Positions 19,864 to 26,418 of a stretch of DNA of 64,000 nucleotides are shown one piece after another. The translations under genes and the position numbers were made by a program. The notes under the pieces were generated by a model, which saw only the letters and a list, made by a program, of their open reading frames with translations, was not told the DNA's origin and searched no databases. Source of the DNA: Paracoccaceae bacterium (lineage in GTDB: Bacteria > Pseudomonadota > Alphaproteobacteria > Rhodobacterales > Rhodobacteraceae); assembly GCA_021741245.1 (NCBI GenBank), contig JAIOYF010000003.1:186001-250000 (forward strand). Reading direction: 5' to 3'. The stretch's first letter is position 1. Every line of letters begins with the position of its first letter.

Positions 19864-20439
19864 ATGATCAAAGTATTCGCTGCTTCAGCCTTTCTGGCCC
19901 TTGGTTTTGGGACGGCAAGCCACGGAGCAACCTTGGACTTCAACGAGCCTGGCGTAACGGGCATTGTTGGCTCAACAGTCATAAACCTCAGCAATGCCGT
20001 GCTGACCTCAGACGGTGCCGACTTCTTTATCGGATTTGGTTTTGGCGAAACGAATGGCAATGGGATTGCCTGCGGTGCAGCCGCCGATGGCTCTTGTGAA
20101 GCCGATTGGGCCATTGATTTTTCAACCGCTGCCACAAACTTGATGTTCTCGAGTTTTGCGACAGCGTCAGGCGACTTTGTGCAAGTTATGGCCTATCTGA
20201 GCGGAGGCTTGCTTGGTTCGGTGGACGTTACGACGGATACTCTGATCGATTTCTCAGGGTTCGGCGCAATTGACCGACTGGTCTTTGATGACAGCAGCAC
20301 TGCTGCCGGAATCGGCTTTGGCGACTTCAGTTTTGATGTGGCGACGGCAACTGTGCCTCTGCCCGCCACACTGCCACTTGTTTTGTTCGGCTTGGGGGCG
20401 CTTGCTGTGGCGCGCCGTCGTTCTGCCCGCGCAAGCTAA
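19864..20439 (+). CDS. VPLPA-CTERM sorting-domain surface protein
   Basis: A 191-residue exported protein. The signal peptide spans about 1-22 ('FGTASHGATLDF'). The body is Gly/Asp/Phe-rich and probably beta-sheet. The C-terminus is tripartite: 'VPLPATLPLVLFGLGALAVA' then 'RRR'. That layout is the VPLPA-CTERM signal known from Rhodobacterales, recognised by a dedicated exosortase that must be encoded elsewhere. AAAGGAG precedes the ATG at 19864. The lower GC of the gene and its flanks differs from neighbouring operons. The function at the surface is unknown. Confidence 0.85.
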   Translation: MIKVFAASAFLALGFGTASHGATLDFNEPGVTGIVGSTVINLSNAVLTSDGADFFIGFGFGETNGNGIACGAAADGSCEADWAIDFSTAATNLMFSSFATASGDFVQVMAYLSGGLLGSVDVTTDTLIDFSGFGAIDRLVFDDSSTAAGIGFGDFSFDVATATVPLPATLPLVLFGLGALAVARRRSARAS

Positions 20440-20854
20440 TCGATATCGCGCGATCCAACCTGCTCTGCATTGACCCAAGGGCCAAGGTGGTCAGCCAACG
20501 CCACGCTTTCTGGCGGGCGCGTTTGGCTTGCCGCCGCCTTTGCGCAGCGCACAGGCCAAAACGGCGCCCTTGTGGACCGACTTGGGCTAGATAGACGGTC
20601 TGATCGCGTCACCGATGCCATTCAGGAATGTTCCTGCCACTTGCATATTCTCCGACCTTGCCCCTCAGCGTTTTAGACCGGTTGGGCCCCTTGGCTGATC
20701 GTCTTGATAACTCTACCAAGGTGGGAGCTTTGCGCCGTAATAATTGTGTTTCGATTGCATAGAATATCCCTCTGGTTGACTCAAGGTCACTTTTGTGAGA
20801 TGAGTCTTGTAAGGAATTTAGGCTGCCACGTTACTTTCATTTGGAGGGACCGAT
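20440..20854. other. Gap upstream of the RiPP precursor gene
   Basis: About 415 bases. The left half is GC-rich with short unassignable frames. The right half (from about 20700) is AT-rich and should hold the precursor promoter; a TTGACT and TAGAAT-like boxes occur but are not well spaced. TTTGGAGGGACC directly precedes the ATG at 20855 and is a strong ribosome-binding site. Confidence 0.5.
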
Positions 20855-21301
20855 ATGGCCGAAAGGACCGAGGGCGAAAAATCACTTGAAATGCGAGTTG
20901 CAGAACTGGAGGACAAACTCCGGGGAATGCAAGTTTCCGAAGACGAGATGAGAGCCTACCAAAAAGTCTCGATGATGCTTTCGGGCGGCCAGATGGGTGG
21001 TGCCGAGGCAGGTCTGACCGAGGCGAACACGGCCGCAGGCGCGACACCGGCAGCCGCCTGCGTGATCAACCAATGCACGATCAGGGCCTGCACCGTGGTG
21101 CAGCAATGCACGATCCGGGCCTGCACCGTTGTGCAGCAGTGCACAATCCGCGCCTGCACGGTGGTTCAGCAATGTATCGTCCAGCAATGCACGATCCGCG
21201 CGTGTACGATCGTTCAAGATTGCATCAACGAATGCGGCGGCGGTTGTGCTCCCGGCGGTGGCGGGTTCTCGGGTGGTGGATTTGGCTCGCTCGGCGGCTG
21301 A
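20855..21301 (+). CDS. Repeat-containing RiPP precursor peptide (putative multi-azole core)
   Basis: A 148-residue peptide. Residues 1-68 hold no cysteine and form a charged, partly coiled-coil leader ('MRVAELEDKLRGMQVSEDEM'). Residues 69-131 hold all 13 cysteines, mostly in near-perfect 11-residue units CTIRACTVVQQ (residues 73-120), with one short unit QQCIV. The tail is Gly-rich. Eight Cys-Thr pairs occur, a layout suited to side-by-side thiazole and methyloxazole rings. The next four genes encode the matching radical-SAM, E1-like, YcaO and SagB enzymes, so I call it their substrate. This is inference from composition and context; I know no named family with this repeat. Confidence 0.8.
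   Translation: MAERTEGEKSLEMRVAELEDKLRGMQVSEDEMRAYQKVSMMLSGGQMGGAEAGLTEANTAAGATPAAACVINQCTIRACTVVQQCTIRACTVVQQCTIRACTVVQQCIVQQCTIRACTIVQDCINECGGGCAPGGGGFSGGGFGSLGG
21071..21214 (+). repeat. 33-base tandem repeats encoding the RiPP core
   Basis: Units at 21071-21100 (30 bases, one Gln codon short), 21101-21133, 21134-21166 and 21182-21214, with a 15-base partial unit at 21167-21181. The peptide is nearly identical between units while codons vary: Arg is AGG, CGG, CGC and CGC, and Cys is TGC or TGT. This suggests selection on the peptide rather than very recent duplication. Confidence 0.85.
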
Positions 21302-21377
21302 CACCGGTAAGACGGCCCTGTGACGACGTGTCATTTCGGCTGATCACATCGCATCACTGTCGGTTGCGGAGGGGTAC

Positions 21378-23243
21378 ATGCACGTTGTCTTCCCGGTGGT
21401 TCCGTTTGCCGATGTGGGTCGGCCAGCGATGGGTGTGGGATTGCTGATCGCCGAAGCGCGAGAGGCGGGGCATTCGGCGCAGGCGATTTATTTCAACATT
21501 GATTTGGCGGCCTCGGCTGGGCTGGAGCCTTATCAGCGCATAGCTTCGAACTTTCCGCCCAATCTGATGATCGGCGAATGGGTCTTTGCCCAAGAGGTCT
21601 TTGGCGACGACGTCTCCCCCCCCGAGGATTACTTCGCCGACATCCTGCTGCCCTATACTGGCGAAGATACGGCGCTGTTCTCGTCGTTGCTGCACATCCG
21701 CCAGATGGTGCCCACATGGTTGGATGCCTGCGTGGCCGAGATCATGGAGCAAAGTCCCGACATCGTCGGCTTCAGCACCGTATTTCACCAGACCTGCGCC
21801 TGTCTGGCGCTTGCGCGGCGGCTGAAGGCATTGCCCAACCCGCCCATCGTGCTGTTTGGCGGTGCGAACTGCGAAGGCGAGATGGGGTTGCAGATGATCC
21901 GCAGCTTTCCATGGATCGACTATGTCTGCTCGGGTGAGGCGGATGCCAGCTTTCCACGCTTGCTGGACCGGCTTGCGGGTGTGGCCCCTGACGGGCCCAT
22001 TCCCGGGGTGCTGGAACGGGGTGCGGCAGCAGAACCCGCGCGGTCGCAGGCCATTCAGGCGATGGATCGCCTGCCATTCCCCGATTTCGATGACTATTTT
22101 GCCCGCCTTGCCGCGTCGCCACTGGCGGGCGCGTTCGAGGGGCATTTGGTGTTTGAAACCTCGCGCGGGTGCTGGTGGGGGGCCAAACATCATTGCACGT
22201 TCTGCGGCCTGAACGGCGATACGATGGCCTTCCGGTCGAAATCGCCCGAACGCGCGTTTGACGAGATTGTCTGGTTGGCAGAGCGCCACAAGGTCACGCA
22301 TATCGGGTGCGTCGACAACATTCTTGACATGAAATACGTCAACACGCTGTTTCCACGGCTTGCTGCCGCGGGGATCAAGCTTGATCTATTCTATGAGGTG
22401 AAGGCCAACCTGCGGCTGGACCAGTTGCGCGCGATGCGGGCGGGCGGCGTTACGCAGATTCAGCCCGGCATCGAAAGCTTTTCCGACACTGTCCTGAAAC
22501 TGATGGAAAAAGGCTGCACGGGGTTTCAGAATATCCAGTTGATGCGCTGGTGCATGGAACTGGGCATCGAGGTGTCTTGGAACGTGCTGGCAGGCTTTCC
22601 GGGCGAAGATCCGCAAGAGTATACCCGGATGGCCGAGTTGATGACGCGGCTGACCCATCTTGATCCGCCCTGTTCGTGTGGCATGTTGCGGCTTGACCGC
22701 TTCAGCCCGTTCCACTCGCGTGCCGAGGCATTGGGCATCAAGCGGATGCGCCCGGCGCGGGCGTATTTCTACGTCTATCCACTGGGCCGGCGCGAATTGG
22801 CGCGGCTGGCGTATTTCTTTGATCATGACTACGACGACGGGCGCAATCCGAACGATTATGTGCTGCCCGTGCAGGCTGAAGTGGGCAAATGGAAAGCCGC
22901 GCGCTTTTCAGCTGATGGCAAGGGGCCAGTGCTGGATGCGGCGTTCGACGACCATGGCGGCGTGACCATCCACGACAGCCGATCAGGCGAACCCTTGGTA
23001 CTGCGCCTCGACGGGCTTGGGGCATGGGTCTATGCGCTGTGCGATTCCACTGCGACCGTGGCGGGGTTGGCCCATGCCACTGGCGCCGCGGAACCGCAGA
23101 TTGAGGCTGTTTTGAACCGGCTTGATGACCAGCGCCTTATTGCCCGACAGGGGGACCGGGCGGTCGCGCTGGCCGTGTTCCGTGTGCGCCCAAACCTCAA
23201 CTTGCAGGAAAGTCATGCCATTTCAGAACCCGCATTTACCTGA
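21378..23243 (+). CDS. RiPP-maturation B12-dependent radical SAM C-methyltransferase
   Basis: A 621-residue enzyme of the 'RiPP maturation radical SAM protein 1' type. The N-terminal part (about 1-230) is a cobalamin-binding-like domain ('VVFPVVPFADVGRPAMGVGL'). The radical SAM core has the family's unusual cluster motif CX7CX2C (Cys265, Cys273, Cys276 in 'SRGCWWGAKHHCTFCGLNG'). The C-terminal 90 residues are a small winged-helix-like tail ('VEAVLNRL'-type). Family members methylate unactivated carbons of precursor peptides. GGAGGGG precedes the ATG at 21378, 76 bases after the precursor stop. The gene overlaps the next by 29 bases. Confidence 0.88.
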   Translation: MHVVFPVVPFADVGRPAMGVGLLIAEAREAGHSAQAIYFNIDLAASAGLEPYQRIASNFPPNLMIGEWVFAQEVFGDDVSPPEDYFADILLPYTGEDTALFSSLLHIRQMVPTWLDACVAEIMEQSPDIVGFSTVFHQTCACLALARRLKALPNPPIVLFGGANCEGEMGLQMIRSFPWIDYVCSGEADASFPRLLDRLAGVAPDGPIPGVLERGAAAEPARSQAIQAMDRLPFPDFDDYFARLAASPLAGAFEGHLVFETSRGCWWGAKHHCTFCGLNGDTMAFRSKSPERAFDEIVWLAERHKVTHIGCVDNILDMKYVNTLFPRLAAAGIKLDLFYEVKANLRLDQLRAMRAGGVTQIQPGIESFSDTVLKLMEKGCTGFQNIQLMRWCMELGIEVSWNVLAGFPGEDPQEYTRMAELMTRLTHLDPPCSCGMLRLDRFSPFHSRAEALGIKRMRPARAYFYVYPLGRRELARLAYFFDHDYDDGRNPNDYVLPVQAEVGKWKAARFSADGKGPVLDAAFDDHGGVTIHDSRSGEPLVLRLDGLGAWVYALCDSTATVAGLAHATGAAEPQIEAVLNRLDDQRLIARQGDRAVALAVFRVRPNLNLQESHAISEPAFT

Positions 23244-24336
23244 TTGCTTTCTGACTTGGACAGAGCCACCGGACGCCAGCGGCGACGAAGTGTTCCGCAT
23301 TGTTTCATGGCGCAGGTCACTCACGCTCAAAGGGCATTCGTTCCGCGAGTTCAGCCGGTCTGTCATTCCCTTGCTGAATGGCTCCAATTCCATGGACATG
23401 ATCTGCGAGTCCGTCTCGGATCTGTTTGACCGGCCGGATCTTGAGGCGGCGCTCGATATGCTGGGTGCGCAGGGGCTGGTTGTCGAAGCCGTCAATGCCG
23501 AGGGTGACCAGCCGCAACGACTGCATGCCCAGCTTGCGTGGCTGGGCGAGGCCGCGCCCGAGGGCCGTGTGGCGCAGCGATGGTTGACGGGGGCCAGTGT
23601 GACCGTGTTTGGCGCGGGCGGGCCGGGGGCCAGTGCCGCACGCATTCTGGCGGCCTCGGGGATCGGGCGGCTTACGCTGGTTGATCCGGCGCAGGTGGGG
23701 CCAACCGATCCCTATTTCTCGCCGCTGTTCCGTGCAGCTGATCAGGGCAAGAGCCGCGCCGAAGTGCTTGCTGCGGTGCTTGGCGACATTGCGCCGGAGG
23801 TAAAGATCACCGCCCATGCCAAGCGTCCCGAAACCCAAGGCGACGTGGCAGCCCTGATCGAGAACGCCGATTTCGTGCTCTGCCTTCTTGACAGCGGTGA
23901 ACTTAATCTGGCGCTCAAGCTGAACCGGGCCTGTCGCGCGCAGGGGGTGCGCTGGCTGGCCGGGGCGATGGAGGGGACTGAACTGGTGATCGGCCCGGGC
24001 TTTTCCGGGGCGGCGGATGCGCCGTGCTATATGTGTTGGCGGATGCGCGAAGTGGCCTGTGCCACCAACCCCGAGGCGCGGTTCGCGCTGGAAAGGCGGC
24101 TGGACAAGCTGCGTCAGGATCTGTCGGGGCGGCGCGAAAATCTGGCGGGTGGCGCGGATATTGTGGGTGCGATGCTGGCCTGCGAAGTGATCAGCGTGTT
24201 GTCCGGGGCTGGTGAGCCTGCCCTTGACGGGCGGTTTCTGGTGGTCGAGGTTCCGGGCCTGCGGCAAGAAAAGCATACCATTTTGCGCAAGCCCGGCTGC
24301 CCGGTGTGTGGCGGCCCGCCCGAGGCTCAGGCATGA
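23215..24336 (+). CDS. TOMM-type E1-like (ocin-ThiF-like) leader-binding protein
   Basis: A 373-residue partner of the YcaO enzyme. Residues about 20-92 resemble the RiPP recognition element that binds the leader peptide. From about 125 there is a ThiF/E1-like Rossmann domain with 'VFGAGGPGASAARILAASG'. Two CxxC pairs ('CYMC', 'CPVC') probably bind structural zinc. In azole RiPP systems this protein delivers the precursor to the cyclodehydratase. I chose the ATG at 23215, behind AGGAAAG; it lies 31 codons inside the longest frame and leaves a 29-base overlap with the methyltransferase. Its stop overlaps the YcaO start (ATGA). Confidence 0.85.
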   Translation: MPFQNPHLPDCFLTWTEPPDASGDEVFRIVSWRRSLTLKGHSFREFSRSVIPLLNGSNSMDMICESVSDLFDRPDLEAALDMLGAQGLVVEAVNAEGDQPQRLHAQLAWLGEAAPEGRVAQRWLTGASVTVFGAGGPGASAARILAASGIGRLTLVDPAQVGPTDPYFSPLFRAADQGKSRAEVLAAVLGDIAPEVKITAHAKRPETQGDVAALIENADFVLCLLDSGELNLALKLNRACRAQGVRWLAGAMEGTELVIGPGFSGAADAPCYMCWRMREVACATNPEARFALERRLDKLRQDLSGRRENLAGGADIVGAMLACEVISVLSGAGEPALDGRFLVVEVPGLRQEKHTILRKPGCPVCGGPPEAQA

Positions 24337-25643
24337 CCGCAGACACCGCCGACGCCAACCGGCTGATCTCCGCCTTGGTCAGCCGCCGCAGCGGGTTGAT
24401 CCGCGAAATTTCGCCACAGGGGCGCGGGCCCGAAGAACCTTGCCCGCCGCATCTTTGGACAGCAACACTGGCGCATTATGATTTCCAGAACGCGCCCCGA
24501 ACCCAGCGACTGAATGCCGGGAAGGGCCGCACCGAAGCAGAGGCCAAGCTTTCGGCGCTTGGCGAAGCGATCGAGCGCTACTCCGCCTATCACTGGGACC
24601 CGGCCCGCGTTCGGGTCGGCCTTGCCCGCCCGGGGGCCATCACCCCGGCTGATTGCGTGCTGCATTCAGCGGCGCAATATGCGGCGGGGCTGACTTATCC
24701 CCCGTGGTCGCCCGAGGTTGAAACCTCATGGATCACGGGTGTTGATCTTGCTAGCGGTGCCCCGGTCGAGGTGCCCGCCGCACTGATCTATCTGGTCAGC
24801 CCCACGCCCCGACGCGAAGACCATGTGACCGCCATCACGTCCAACGGCCTTGCGGCGGGCGCTGATCTGACCCGTGCCATCATCGGTGGGCTGCAAGAAC
24901 TGATCGAGCGTGACGCGCTGATGATCACATGGGCAAACCGGCTGCCCGCAACGCTGATCCGCACGCCTGACCGCGACTGCATGGCGGCGGCGATCATCCG
25001 CCAATACGCGCGCTACGGCGTCAAGGTGCGTCTGGTGCTGCTGGCCACCGATCAAGCGGCCAGCGTGGTCATGGCAATCGCCGACAACCCTGATCCGCGC
25101 GATGCCGCCCGCCTGATCGGCATGGGGTGCGATCTTGACCCGGTTGTGGCTGTCGATAAGGCGGTGTTCGAGCTGTGTCAGGCCCGTCCCAGCATGGCCG
25201 CACGGATGCAGGCAGCCAACCCCGCCGAGCGGCTGAAGCGGTATGAGGATGTGCGCGATCTGGATGACCATCCGCTGTTTCACGCCATCCCCGCGCATGG
25301 GGCCGAGTTCGATTTCCTGTTCGCCTCTGGTCAAGTGGTGGCGTTGGAGGATCTTGCCCCGCAGCAGCCGCGCACACCCGACGAAACCCTTGCGCAGATC
25401 GTGGGCGGCCTGACCCGCACCGGTTTACGTGCGGCCTATGTCGATATCACCGCCCCCGATATCGCGCCACTGGGCCCGCGCGCCGTGCGGTGCATTGCGC
25501 CGGGCCTGCAACCGATCCATTTTGGCTATGGTGAGGGGCGCTATGGCGGCCGGCGGCTGTTCGAGGCGCCCGTTGACTGGGGCCTGCGAACTGCGCCGCT
25601 GGACGAAGCCGCCCTGAACCCTGCCCCCCATCCGCTGGCGTGA
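24333..25643 (+). CDS. YcaO cyclodehydratase (azoline-forming)
   Basis: ATP-dependent YcaO enzyme of 436 residues that activates backbone amides so that Cys and Ser/Thr side chains cyclise to thiazolines and oxazolines. ATP/Mg-binding marks are 'SALGEAIERYSA' (Glu78, Glu81, Arg82) and 'LQELIERDALM' (about 187-197). The chain ends in 'NPAPHPLA', so residues 430-434 (PAPHP) form the C-terminal PxPxP motif typical of azoline-forming YcaOs and absent from many others. This supports heterocyclisation as the chemistry. It is translationally coupled to the E1-like gene. Confidence 0.92.
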   Translation: MTADTADANRLISALVSRRSGLIREISPQGRGPEEPCPPHLWTATLAHYDFQNAPRTQRLNAGKGRTEAEAKLSALGEAIERYSAYHWDPARVRVGLARPGAITPADCVLHSAAQYAAGLTYPPWSPEVETSWITGVDLASGAPVEVPAALIYLVSPTPRREDHVTAITSNGLAAGADLTRAIIGGLQELIERDALMITWANRLPATLIRTPDRDCMAAAIIRQYARYGVKVRLVLLATDQAASVVMAIADNPDPRDAARLIGMGCDLDPVVAVDKAVFELCQARPSMAARMQAANPAERLKRYEDVRDLDDHPLFHAIPAHGAEFDFLFASGQVVALEDLAPQQPRTPDETLAQIVGGLTRTGLRAAYVDITAPDIAPLGPRAVRCIAPGLQPIHFGYGEGRYGGRRLFEAPVDWGLRTAPLDEAALNPAPHPLA

Positions 25644-25647
25644 TCCG

Positions 25648-26418
25648 ATGAGCACCTATGTCCACGACCCCATGGTCCTGTCGCAACTCTTTCACCTCAA
25701 CTCTGAGCCGTGGCTGAATGAGGCCGCCTATCGCGGTGCCCCCTTTGTGCAGGAGTTCCGCAGCAATCCTGCAGCCGCGCGCATCGCACTGCCCGCAACC
25801 TTGCCCGGCCCGTTGCATGAACTGGCCACCAACCGCCGCTCGGTCCGGGCGTTTCAGCCCGCGCCCATGCCCTTGGCCGCTTTGGCCGCGCTGTTGCGGG
25901 CGGGCTACGGCGTGCATGGCCCCGACCCGATGGAGGGGGGAGGGCACTTCTTGCGTCGCCCGGTGCCATCGGCTGGTGGTCTTTATCCGCTGGAGATTTA
26001 TGCGCTTGTTCACCGTGTCGAGGGGCTGGCGGCGGGCATCTATCACTATGACGCGCTTGGTGATGCGCTGGAAACCGTGCGTGCTGGCGATTGGCAGCAA
26101 GAGGCAGCCTCGATGTTTTACACTTGGCCCTTTGTTGATCAGGCCCCGGTCATCCTTTGCCTTGCGGCGATGTTCGGGCGCACCCAAAAGAAATACGGGC
26201 CGCGCGGCTATCGCTATATCTTGCTTGAAGCCGGGCATGTGGCGCAGAATATTTGTCTGGTCGCGGCCGAGGGAGGCCTCGCGTCGCTGTGCATGGGCGG
26301 CTACCGCGACGGTGCGCTGAACCGGCTGCTGGGACTGTCGGCCCCCGCCGAAGGCGTGGTCTACACACTTGGCCTTGGTCAGGCGGCGCTGCCGCTTGCC
26401 ATGGGATCGCCACCCTGA
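25648..26418 (+). CDS. SagB-type FMN azoline dehydrogenase
   Basis: Nitroreductase-fold flavoenzyme of 256 residues that oxidises azolines to aromatic azoles. Family features are 'NRRSVRAF', 'PSAGGLYPLEIYALV' (the SagB 'SAGGLYP' block) and 'KYGPRGYRYILLEAGHVAQN', which contains the Lys/Tyr active-site region described for SagB-like dehydrogenases. It starts four bases after the YcaO stop and is the last gene of the locus. Its presence implies that the final product carries thiazoles and oxazoles rather than only azolines. Confidence 0.9.
   Translation: MSTYVHDPMVLSQLFHLNSEPWLNEAAYRGAPFVQEFRSNPAAARIALPATLPGPLHELATNRRSVRAFQPAPMPLAALAALLRAGYGVHGPDPMEGGGHFLRRPVPSAGGLYPLEIYALVHRVEGLAAGIYHYDALGDALETVRAGDWQQEAASMFYTWPFVDQAPVILCLAAMFGRTQKKYGPRGYRYILLEAGHVAQNICLVAAEGGLASLCMGGYRDGALNRLLGLSAPAEGVVYTLGLGQAALPLAMGSPP

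Follow-up and report, generated by a model that had tools for sequence, protein, structure and literature searches.

A five-gene cluster predicted to install thiazoles and methyl groups on a cysteine-repeat peptide recurs in three phyla

The pathways for thiazole/oxazole-modified microcins and linear azol(in)e-containing peptides (TOMM/LAP) are close described relatives of the locus presented here, with which they have in common an E1-like (C-type) protein, a TIGR03604 YcaO protein with a proline-rich C-terminus, a SagB-type dehydrogenase and a Cys-rich repeat core. A second point of comparison is provided by PoyB and PoyC of polytheonamide-type (proteusin) pathways and by the bottromycin radical methyltransferases, cobalamin-type radical S-adenosylmethionine (SAM) enzymes that share a Cx7Cx2C motif (excerpts of PMC5682303 and PMC11285071). 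In excerpted accounts, these enzymes methylate the C-beta of Val, Ile, Thr, Gln, Met, Phe and Pro, and PoyB and PoyC that of Val, Ile, Thr, Gln and Met. Clusters retrieved by a TIGR03975 rule were excluded as likely false positives in the excerpted text of PMC9426513.

Here we describe a cluster of five same-strand genes at positions 20855-26418 of the window, the 64,000-nucleotide stretch of Paracoccaceae bacterium DNA that was analysed (assembly GCA_021741245.1, contig JAIOYF010000003.1, positions 186,001 to 250,000). In order, the genes encode a precursor peptide, a radical SAM enzyme, an E1-like protein, a YcaO protein and a SagB protein. An earlier reading made from the letters alone (the sequence-only reading) had presented these reading frames as an unusual locus for a ribosomally synthesized and post-translationally modified peptide (RiPP). 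All five frames are present; our analysis confirms this observation and supports the interpretation placed on it in part. We propose, with a probability of roughly 0.55, that the cluster would make a peptide in which many Cys are converted to thiazoles, and Val, Ile and Thr between the rings are methylated at C-beta. The genes overlap or nearly abut, save for a gap of 76 bases 3' of the precursor gene, and the first 29 bases of the E1-like gene are shared with the end of the radical SAM gene. Their coordinates within the window are as follows.

20855..21301, forward strand: precursor gene, 148 aa, coordinates including the stop codon
20855..21058, forward strand: leader, residues 1-68, conserved KSLEMRVAELEDKL...EDEMRAYQKV
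21059..21235, forward strand: Cys-repeat core, residues 69-127, with 12 of the 13 Cys
21074..21172, forward strand: three 33-base units, each encoding CTIRACTVVQQ
21236..21298, forward strand: conserved Gly-rich tail GGGCAPGGGGFSGGGFGSLGG, residues 128-148
21378..23243, forward strand: B12-type radical SAM enzyme, TIGR03975 (RiPP maturation radical SAM C-methyltransferase), 621 aa
22170..22205, forward strand: C-x7-C-x2-C cluster motif, residues 265-276 of the radical SAM protein
23215..24336, forward strand: E1-like protein (TOMM C-protein type), 373 aa
23215..23484, forward strand: N-terminal three-strand, three-helix domain of the E1-like protein, likely leader-binding (RiPP recognition element, RRE)
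24333..25643, forward strand: YcaO cyclodehydratase, 436 aa from the ATG in an ATGA overlap, C-terminus ...LNPAPHPLA
25648..26418, forward strand: SagB-type flavin mononucleotide (FMN) dehydrogenase, 256 aa

Genome contigs were scanned with the precursor alignment, yielding a sample of at least 15 loci. The complete five-gene set occurs in the same order in 10 of the 15 loci listed and in three phyla (four Paracoccus, Tateyamaria, two Pyrinomonadaceae, an Acidobacteria bacterium, a Terriglobia bacterium and Solirubrobacter), which supports the earlier claim that this is a RiPP locus whose repeat precursor is co-conserved with four enzymes of the azole and C-methylation kind. The precursor is the first gene in every complete locus. 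With L062 and the window, complete clusters total 12, including the close kin L033 and L036; L055, L056 and L060 are repeats of L035, L032 and L046, respectively. We also looked at whether precursor homologues occur mostly without the enzymes, and found that they do not: at least three of the four enzymes are present in 12 of the 15 listed loci. One locus from a metagenome-assembled genome (L043) has all five genes, with a radical SAM frame that lacks residues 26-290; this gap lies in an open frame (L043:10492-11610) and could be an assembly fault. The Yoonia locus L046 has four genes and no radical SAM gene, and L040 breaks off at its contig end within the radical SAM gene. None of the enzymes is present in two Mesorhizobium loci, which have just a short leader-like gene (L044:3298-3579 and L045:9752-10228) that keeps the leader motif without a Cys core, as a stray leader-like protein; no E1-like match was found in these two genomes.

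The cluster is patchy within genera. E1-like matches were found in 8 of 56 genomes of the genus Yoonia and 4 of 125 of the genus Paracoccus, in 1 of 337 genomes of the class (the window's own), and in 2 of 297 and 1 of 149 genomes on the Acidobacteriota and Actinomycetota sides, respectively, the matches on these two sides all being seeds known beforehand. The precursor profile matched 8 of 390 genomes of the order, and the source genome itself has a single YcaO and a single precursor match.

A search of 5.8 billion proteins gave 388 precursor homologues at E<=1 among 713 candidates; the counts over 1212 intervals and 1331 Cys given below use the 120 listed of these 388. The leader motifs are SLEMRVAELEDKL and EDEMRAYQKV, and a 36-row alignment shows invariant residues in both the leader (E12, R14, E19, D20, E29, E31, K37 and V38) and the tail (G141, G142, F143 and G147), while most Yoonia forms carry an acidic or other tail in place of the Gly-rich one. 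The repeat is a 33-base unit present in 3.2 copies with 87% matches (score 159). The encoded peptide, CTIRACTVVQQ, is the same in its three units, and the 3, 5 and 6 bases at which these differ are all synonymous, with no non-synonymous codon. Because the units differ only synonymously, the peptide itself looks selected. Furthermore, the interval from Cys to Cys is 4, 5 or 6 residues in 1164 of 1212 cases, and the residue after Cys is T, I or V at 1036 of 1331 Cys. Units of the IRQP[IV] type, in register with IRQC units, occur in 14 of the 21 proteins newly listed as relatives of the Solirubrobacter precursor; Pro replacing Cys in this register would be expected should Cys become a five-membered ring. 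As read from these sequences, the ring is the constant element: a Cys every 4-6 residues, with Pro, the natural five-membered-ring residue, at the same place in one subfamily. The precursor reaches no curated cut-off of Pfam or NCBIfam. The NHLP and Nif11 leader models gave no match for the window precursor and none among the 25 of 29 families listed for 36 members (E<=1). A search of viral contigs with the precursor returned 25 pattern stretches, none of which was confirmed.

The radical SAM protein scores 721 bits against TIGR03975 (cut-off 282), and its predicted fold matches cobalamin enzymes and methyltransferases over both domains. The Cx7Cx2C motif described by the sequence-only reading is there, and it recurs in 12 of the 13 radical SAM rows of this cluster type, the 13th being L043, which lacks the region. 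The motif is also found in five of six other TIGR03975-type loci (L083, L084, L085, L090 and L091, not L086); another radical SAM protein (L007), under the TIGR03975 cut-off, carries Cx3Cx2C. Since this motif is shared with PoyB/PoyC and the bottromycin methyltransferases, it points to methylation of an sp3 C-beta. The earlier claim of methylation at an unspecified carbon is thereby narrowed.

Within the family, TIGR03975 is above cut-off in 5 of 295 genomes. Three TIGR03975 genes of the family that lack the precursor (L084-L086) were set aside as other pathways. A separate TIGR03975 gene (L083, G314:C1:738000-752500) lies with two short peptides, one ending in DGIIGSRCA and the other in DGIIRSRCL; nearby is a gene for a protein distantly homologous to the cyclase/AAA protein described below. 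The window radical SAM protein (21378-23243) matches phage family phrog_21079, whose function is unassigned there, at 361 bits; despite this match, phage records searched with the protein at E<=1e-20 gave none. No cobalamin riboswitch was found: at Rfam gathering scores, the window yields a tRNA and nothing else.

The three other enzymes are of the types expected for azole formation. The E1-like protein scores 112 bits against ThiF (cut-off 28) and 53 bits against TIGR03882 (cut-off 37), and its model resembles MccB over residues 4-367, including an N-terminal domain of three strands and three helices. This domain likely binds the leader as a predicted RRE, in keeping with the leader-binding-like domain first described. 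YcaO scores 319 bits against TIGR03604, the azoline-forming type (cut-off 219), and has LynD, TruD and MusD as PDB relatives. The C-terminal PxPxP attributed to it is present as PAPHP near the end, with two residues following. PxPxP occurs near the C-terminus in 15 of 21 YcaO rows, and CPHP[LM]A or APHPLA in all 21. SagB, which has the SAGGLYP block noted previously, scores 136 bits against TIGR03605 (cut-off 78) and 109 bits against Nitroreductase, with CyaGox and McbC among its PDB relatives.

Eight loci of the genus Yoonia have the E1-YcaO-SagB genes and lack the radical SAM gene there. Their precursors retain the leader, weakly in L079, and each core has one near-constant residue after Cys and is poor in Val, Ile and Thr. 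The pattern is ACF in L057 (13/13 Cys) and L079 (5/5), ACM in the near relatives L059 (19/19), L077 (19/19) and L076 (18/18) and in L060 (12/15), and ACQ in L061 (19/19). The ACQ pattern is not just recent duplication, because the linkers vary while ACQ stays. The fraction of Val, Ile and Thr is 0-0.11 in the seven cores without a radical SAM gene (omitting L058, whose core contains a stretch of N, and L078, where no precursor was seen next to the E1-YcaO-SagB genes) vs 0.14-0.31 in 12 cores with one, L040 and L043 being kept apart. In six of the eight genomes, no TIGR03975-family match was found at E<=0.001, and the match in G538 is under the cut-off. An orphan ACQ-repeat precursor (L061:8409-8927) lies about 270 kb from its genome's E1-YcaO-SagB genes (L078) on the same contig.

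In the proposed route, the N-terminal domain of the E1-like protein would bind the leader through SLEMRVAELEDKL..., while its E1 fold would act as a scaffold without adenylation. YcaO and ATP would convert core Cys, up to 13, to thiazolines, which SagB and FMN would oxidise to thiazoles, and the B12-dependent Cx7Cx2C radical SAM enzyme would transfer methyl groups to the sp3 beta-carbons of Val, Ile and Thr. Removal of the leader may fall to a protease whose gene lies elsewhere; the Gly-rich tail may be kept or serve in recognition. Several points weigh against this proposal. The product is a prediction from the genes, and the likeness of the radical SAM protein to PoyC is one of motif. The protein scores 22.3 bits against the Pfam B12-binding model, for which the cut-off is 32.1, and the cluster-binding loop of its model has a predicted local distance difference test (pLDDT) value below 50. 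Strict PxPxP fails in 6 of 21 YcaO rows. The Val, Ile and Thr fractions of the two groups of cores nearly touch (0.11 in L061, 0.14 in L042), and L043, with its incomplete radical SAM frame, has a fraction of 0.09. Furthermore, the loci without a radical SAM gene form one branch on the E1 and YcaO trees (100/100 and 100/99), nested among those that have it (midpoint root); the core contrast is therefore a single evolutionary event and only suggestive. Finally, one of the Yoonia-genus genomes (G314) has a full TIGR03975 gene far from the cluster, beside other short peptides.

The sequence-only reading had envisaged that bis-heterocycles of the microcin B17 kind, here thiazole-methyloxazole, could form at Cys-Thr pairs, alongside some carbon methylation, an outcome that we consider rather doubtful. 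The window precursor, with its 13 Cys, does have the eight Cys-Thr pairs first counted, and Thr follows 232 of 277 Ala-Cys sites. Among homologues that contain Pro, 14 in number, Thr comes after Cys at 9 of 13 [IVL]RxC sites vs 0 of 43 [IVL]RxP sites. Thr following Cys yet never Pro therefore speaks for Cys-Thr pairing, although these sites are non-independent and come from few conserved positions, and Thr is dispensable elsewhere. Indeed, seven alignment columns reach at least 90% Cys whereas no column does so for Thr, which follows 508 of 1331 Cys (38%); 5 of the 120 homologues have no Cys-Thr at all. Phe, Met or Gln stands after Cys in the Yoonia cores, and no core Cys in the sister cores without a radical SAM gene is followed by Thr. 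Judged from sequence, thiazole-methyloxazole pairs are thus neither required nor excluded by the data. The radical SAM enzyme could also perform a different reaction on the same poly-thiazole peptide, such as methylation of Arg, Gln, Pro or a thiazole carbon, or ring or thioether formation. We hold this to be doubtful. Arg and Gln recur in the repeats, Arg is absent from all seven cores without a radical SAM gene, and the fold relatives of the enzyme include MgmA, the McrA glutamine methylase, together with OxsB and AprD4, whose main reaction is not known to be methyl transfer. TvgB, of another radical SAM family, forms cyclopropylglycine on a valine-repeat peptide (excerpt of PMC9062424). Conversely, TIGR03975 is named as a C-methyltransferase family, which is a name and no test, and Cx7Cx2C is the motif that excerpted accounts give for PoyB/PoyC and the bottromycin methyltransferases.

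Two further explanations would change the role of the E1-like protein or of the precursor. MccB and PaaA are the closest solved structures to the E1-like protein by both sequence and fold, and an active adenylating enzyme of their kind would give a product chemically different from a plain poly-azole. The Arg of N-L-x-R-Q and the next Lys, both retained in MoeB and MccB, are replaced by Phe or Leu and by Arg, respectively, in 13 of 13 aligned E1-like rows; furthermore, TIGR03882 is above its cut-off and the protein is constantly partnered by a TOMM-type YcaO and SagB. Adenylation as by MccB was rejected on these lost residues and appears very unlikely. It is hardly credible that the repeat protein stays unmodified as a Cys-rich fold, for instance a left-handed beta-helix or a metal-binding protein, with the enzymes acting on something else. 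Hexapeptide beta-helix models match at 13-15 bits and two homologues are named after GlmU by JGI, but these scores are far under the cut-offs (34-470 bits), repeat lengths vary irregularly between 4, 5 and 6 within homologues and in Yoonia, and the precursor opens every complete cluster. The beta-helix was rejected on its weak scores and the irregular spacing. We retain thiazole formation combined with C-beta methylation as the preferred reading.

Upstream of the precursor gene, the following features were read from the sequence.

20778..20806, 5' of the precursor gene: imperfect, nested inverted repeat GACTCA-agg-TCAC-tttt-GTGA-ga-TGAGTC
20843..20848, forward strand: GGAGGG, ribosome-binding-site-like, six bases 5' of the precursor ATG

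The inverted repeat overlaps a TTGACT -35-like hexamer at 20776 and is a possible operator. This hexamer was not among the sites listed by a consensus promoter scan of the window, in which the numbers of promoter-like and terminator-like sites are no different from chance. Five neighbours scanned with Pfam are an SMP-30 lactonase, a PEP-CTERM protein, an aminotransferase and a zinc dehydrogenase, which look like kbl and tdh, and a glyoxalase; no exporter or protease was found among them. The PEP-CTERM-motif protein lies directly 5' of the precursor (19864-20436; 26 bits, cut-off 20.7), and no link with the cluster was seen. No thiopeptide dehydratase or pyridine synthase appeared in the Pfam and NCBIfam matches of the five cluster genes or in the Pfam matches of the five neighbours.

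A search for shared neighbours in L032-L046, by single-linkage BLAST of the longest non-overlapping frames, found no non-cluster family in more than 3 of 15 loci; it could miss genes under antisense frames and recovered the five genes partly. In the genus Yoonia, seven of the eight precursor genes (L046/L060, L057, L058, L059, L061, L076 and L077, not L079) adjoin a gene for a protein of about 1110-1130 aa with a sterile alpha motif, a class III cyclase, AAA_16 and TPR (Pfam, L057 copy). This gene adjoins the L061 precursor even with E1-YcaO-SagB far off. In Paracoccus L033 and L036, a BTAD regulator lies 3' of SagB. These neighbours hint at a role in regulation or signalling rather than at a bacteriocin that brings its own means of export and immunity. 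A broader and unlikely picture is that of a periodic thiazole ribbon, in which a five-membered ring (thiazole, or Pro as a stand-in) would recur and each peptide would have a single fixed type of side chain behind the ring (T/V/I, Met, Phe or Gln); C-beta methyls would be an optional addition where the B12 radical SAM gene is present. The Yoonia ribbon would then be made or sensed under regulation by the adjoining cyclase-AAA-TPR protein, as a regulatory or signalling polymer and not a classical bacteriocin.

If thiazole formation and C-beta methylation do occur as we propose, they meet on one repeat peptide in three phyla, with natural variants in which one of the enzymes is missing (Yoonia) or Pro takes the place of Cys. 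Such variants would allow direct tests of which substrates YcaO and the TIGR03975 methyltransferases accept, the latter having seen little testing so far. With a model of the precursor, loci that today have none could also be recognised in genome mining. We found no description of this precursor family in the open-licence literature; subscription papers lay outside that search, which is not proof of absence. A comparable NCBIfam entry is NF038108 (CefA, a RiPP peptide with a Cys at every fifth residue), which has a similarly short and regular Cys spacing. Nine of 36 members match it at E<=1, but the best score is 18.2 bits and that of the window precursor 12.5, against a cut-off of 30.

Two other TIGR03975 loci share the Cx7Cx2C motif. 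The protein of Rhizobium johnstonii pRL10 (35.4% identity) accompanies a Nif11-like precursor, with a core rich in Val, Ile and Thr, and a radical SAM epimerase, and that of Streptomyces globosus (40.6% identity) a pheganomycin-family precursor whose core contains Val. Relatives of the enzyme in other loci thus also accompany cores with residues of the type proposed for methylation, which favours the preferred reading. In the stretches compared, neither has an annotated YcaO, E1 or SagB, and their precursors are unrelated to that of the window. Compared with PoyB/PoyC and the bottromycin enzymes, the substrate proposed here is a poly-thiazole core, alongside E1-YcaO-SagB. In heterocycloanthracin, according to the excerpted survey of TOMMs (PMC4603692), the precursor is distally encoded, as in the one Yoonia-genus genome described above; the term 'radical SAM' is absent from the main text of that survey. 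The cluster differs from TOMM/LAP pathways in having a B12-type radical SAM enzyme as its second gene, a Gly-rich tail, no exporter gene within the cluster and a precursor family under all Pfam and NCBIfam cut-offs. By its predicted enzymes, it belongs with the TOMM/LAP systems, to which it adds a putative B12 radical SAM methyltransferase and this precursor family.

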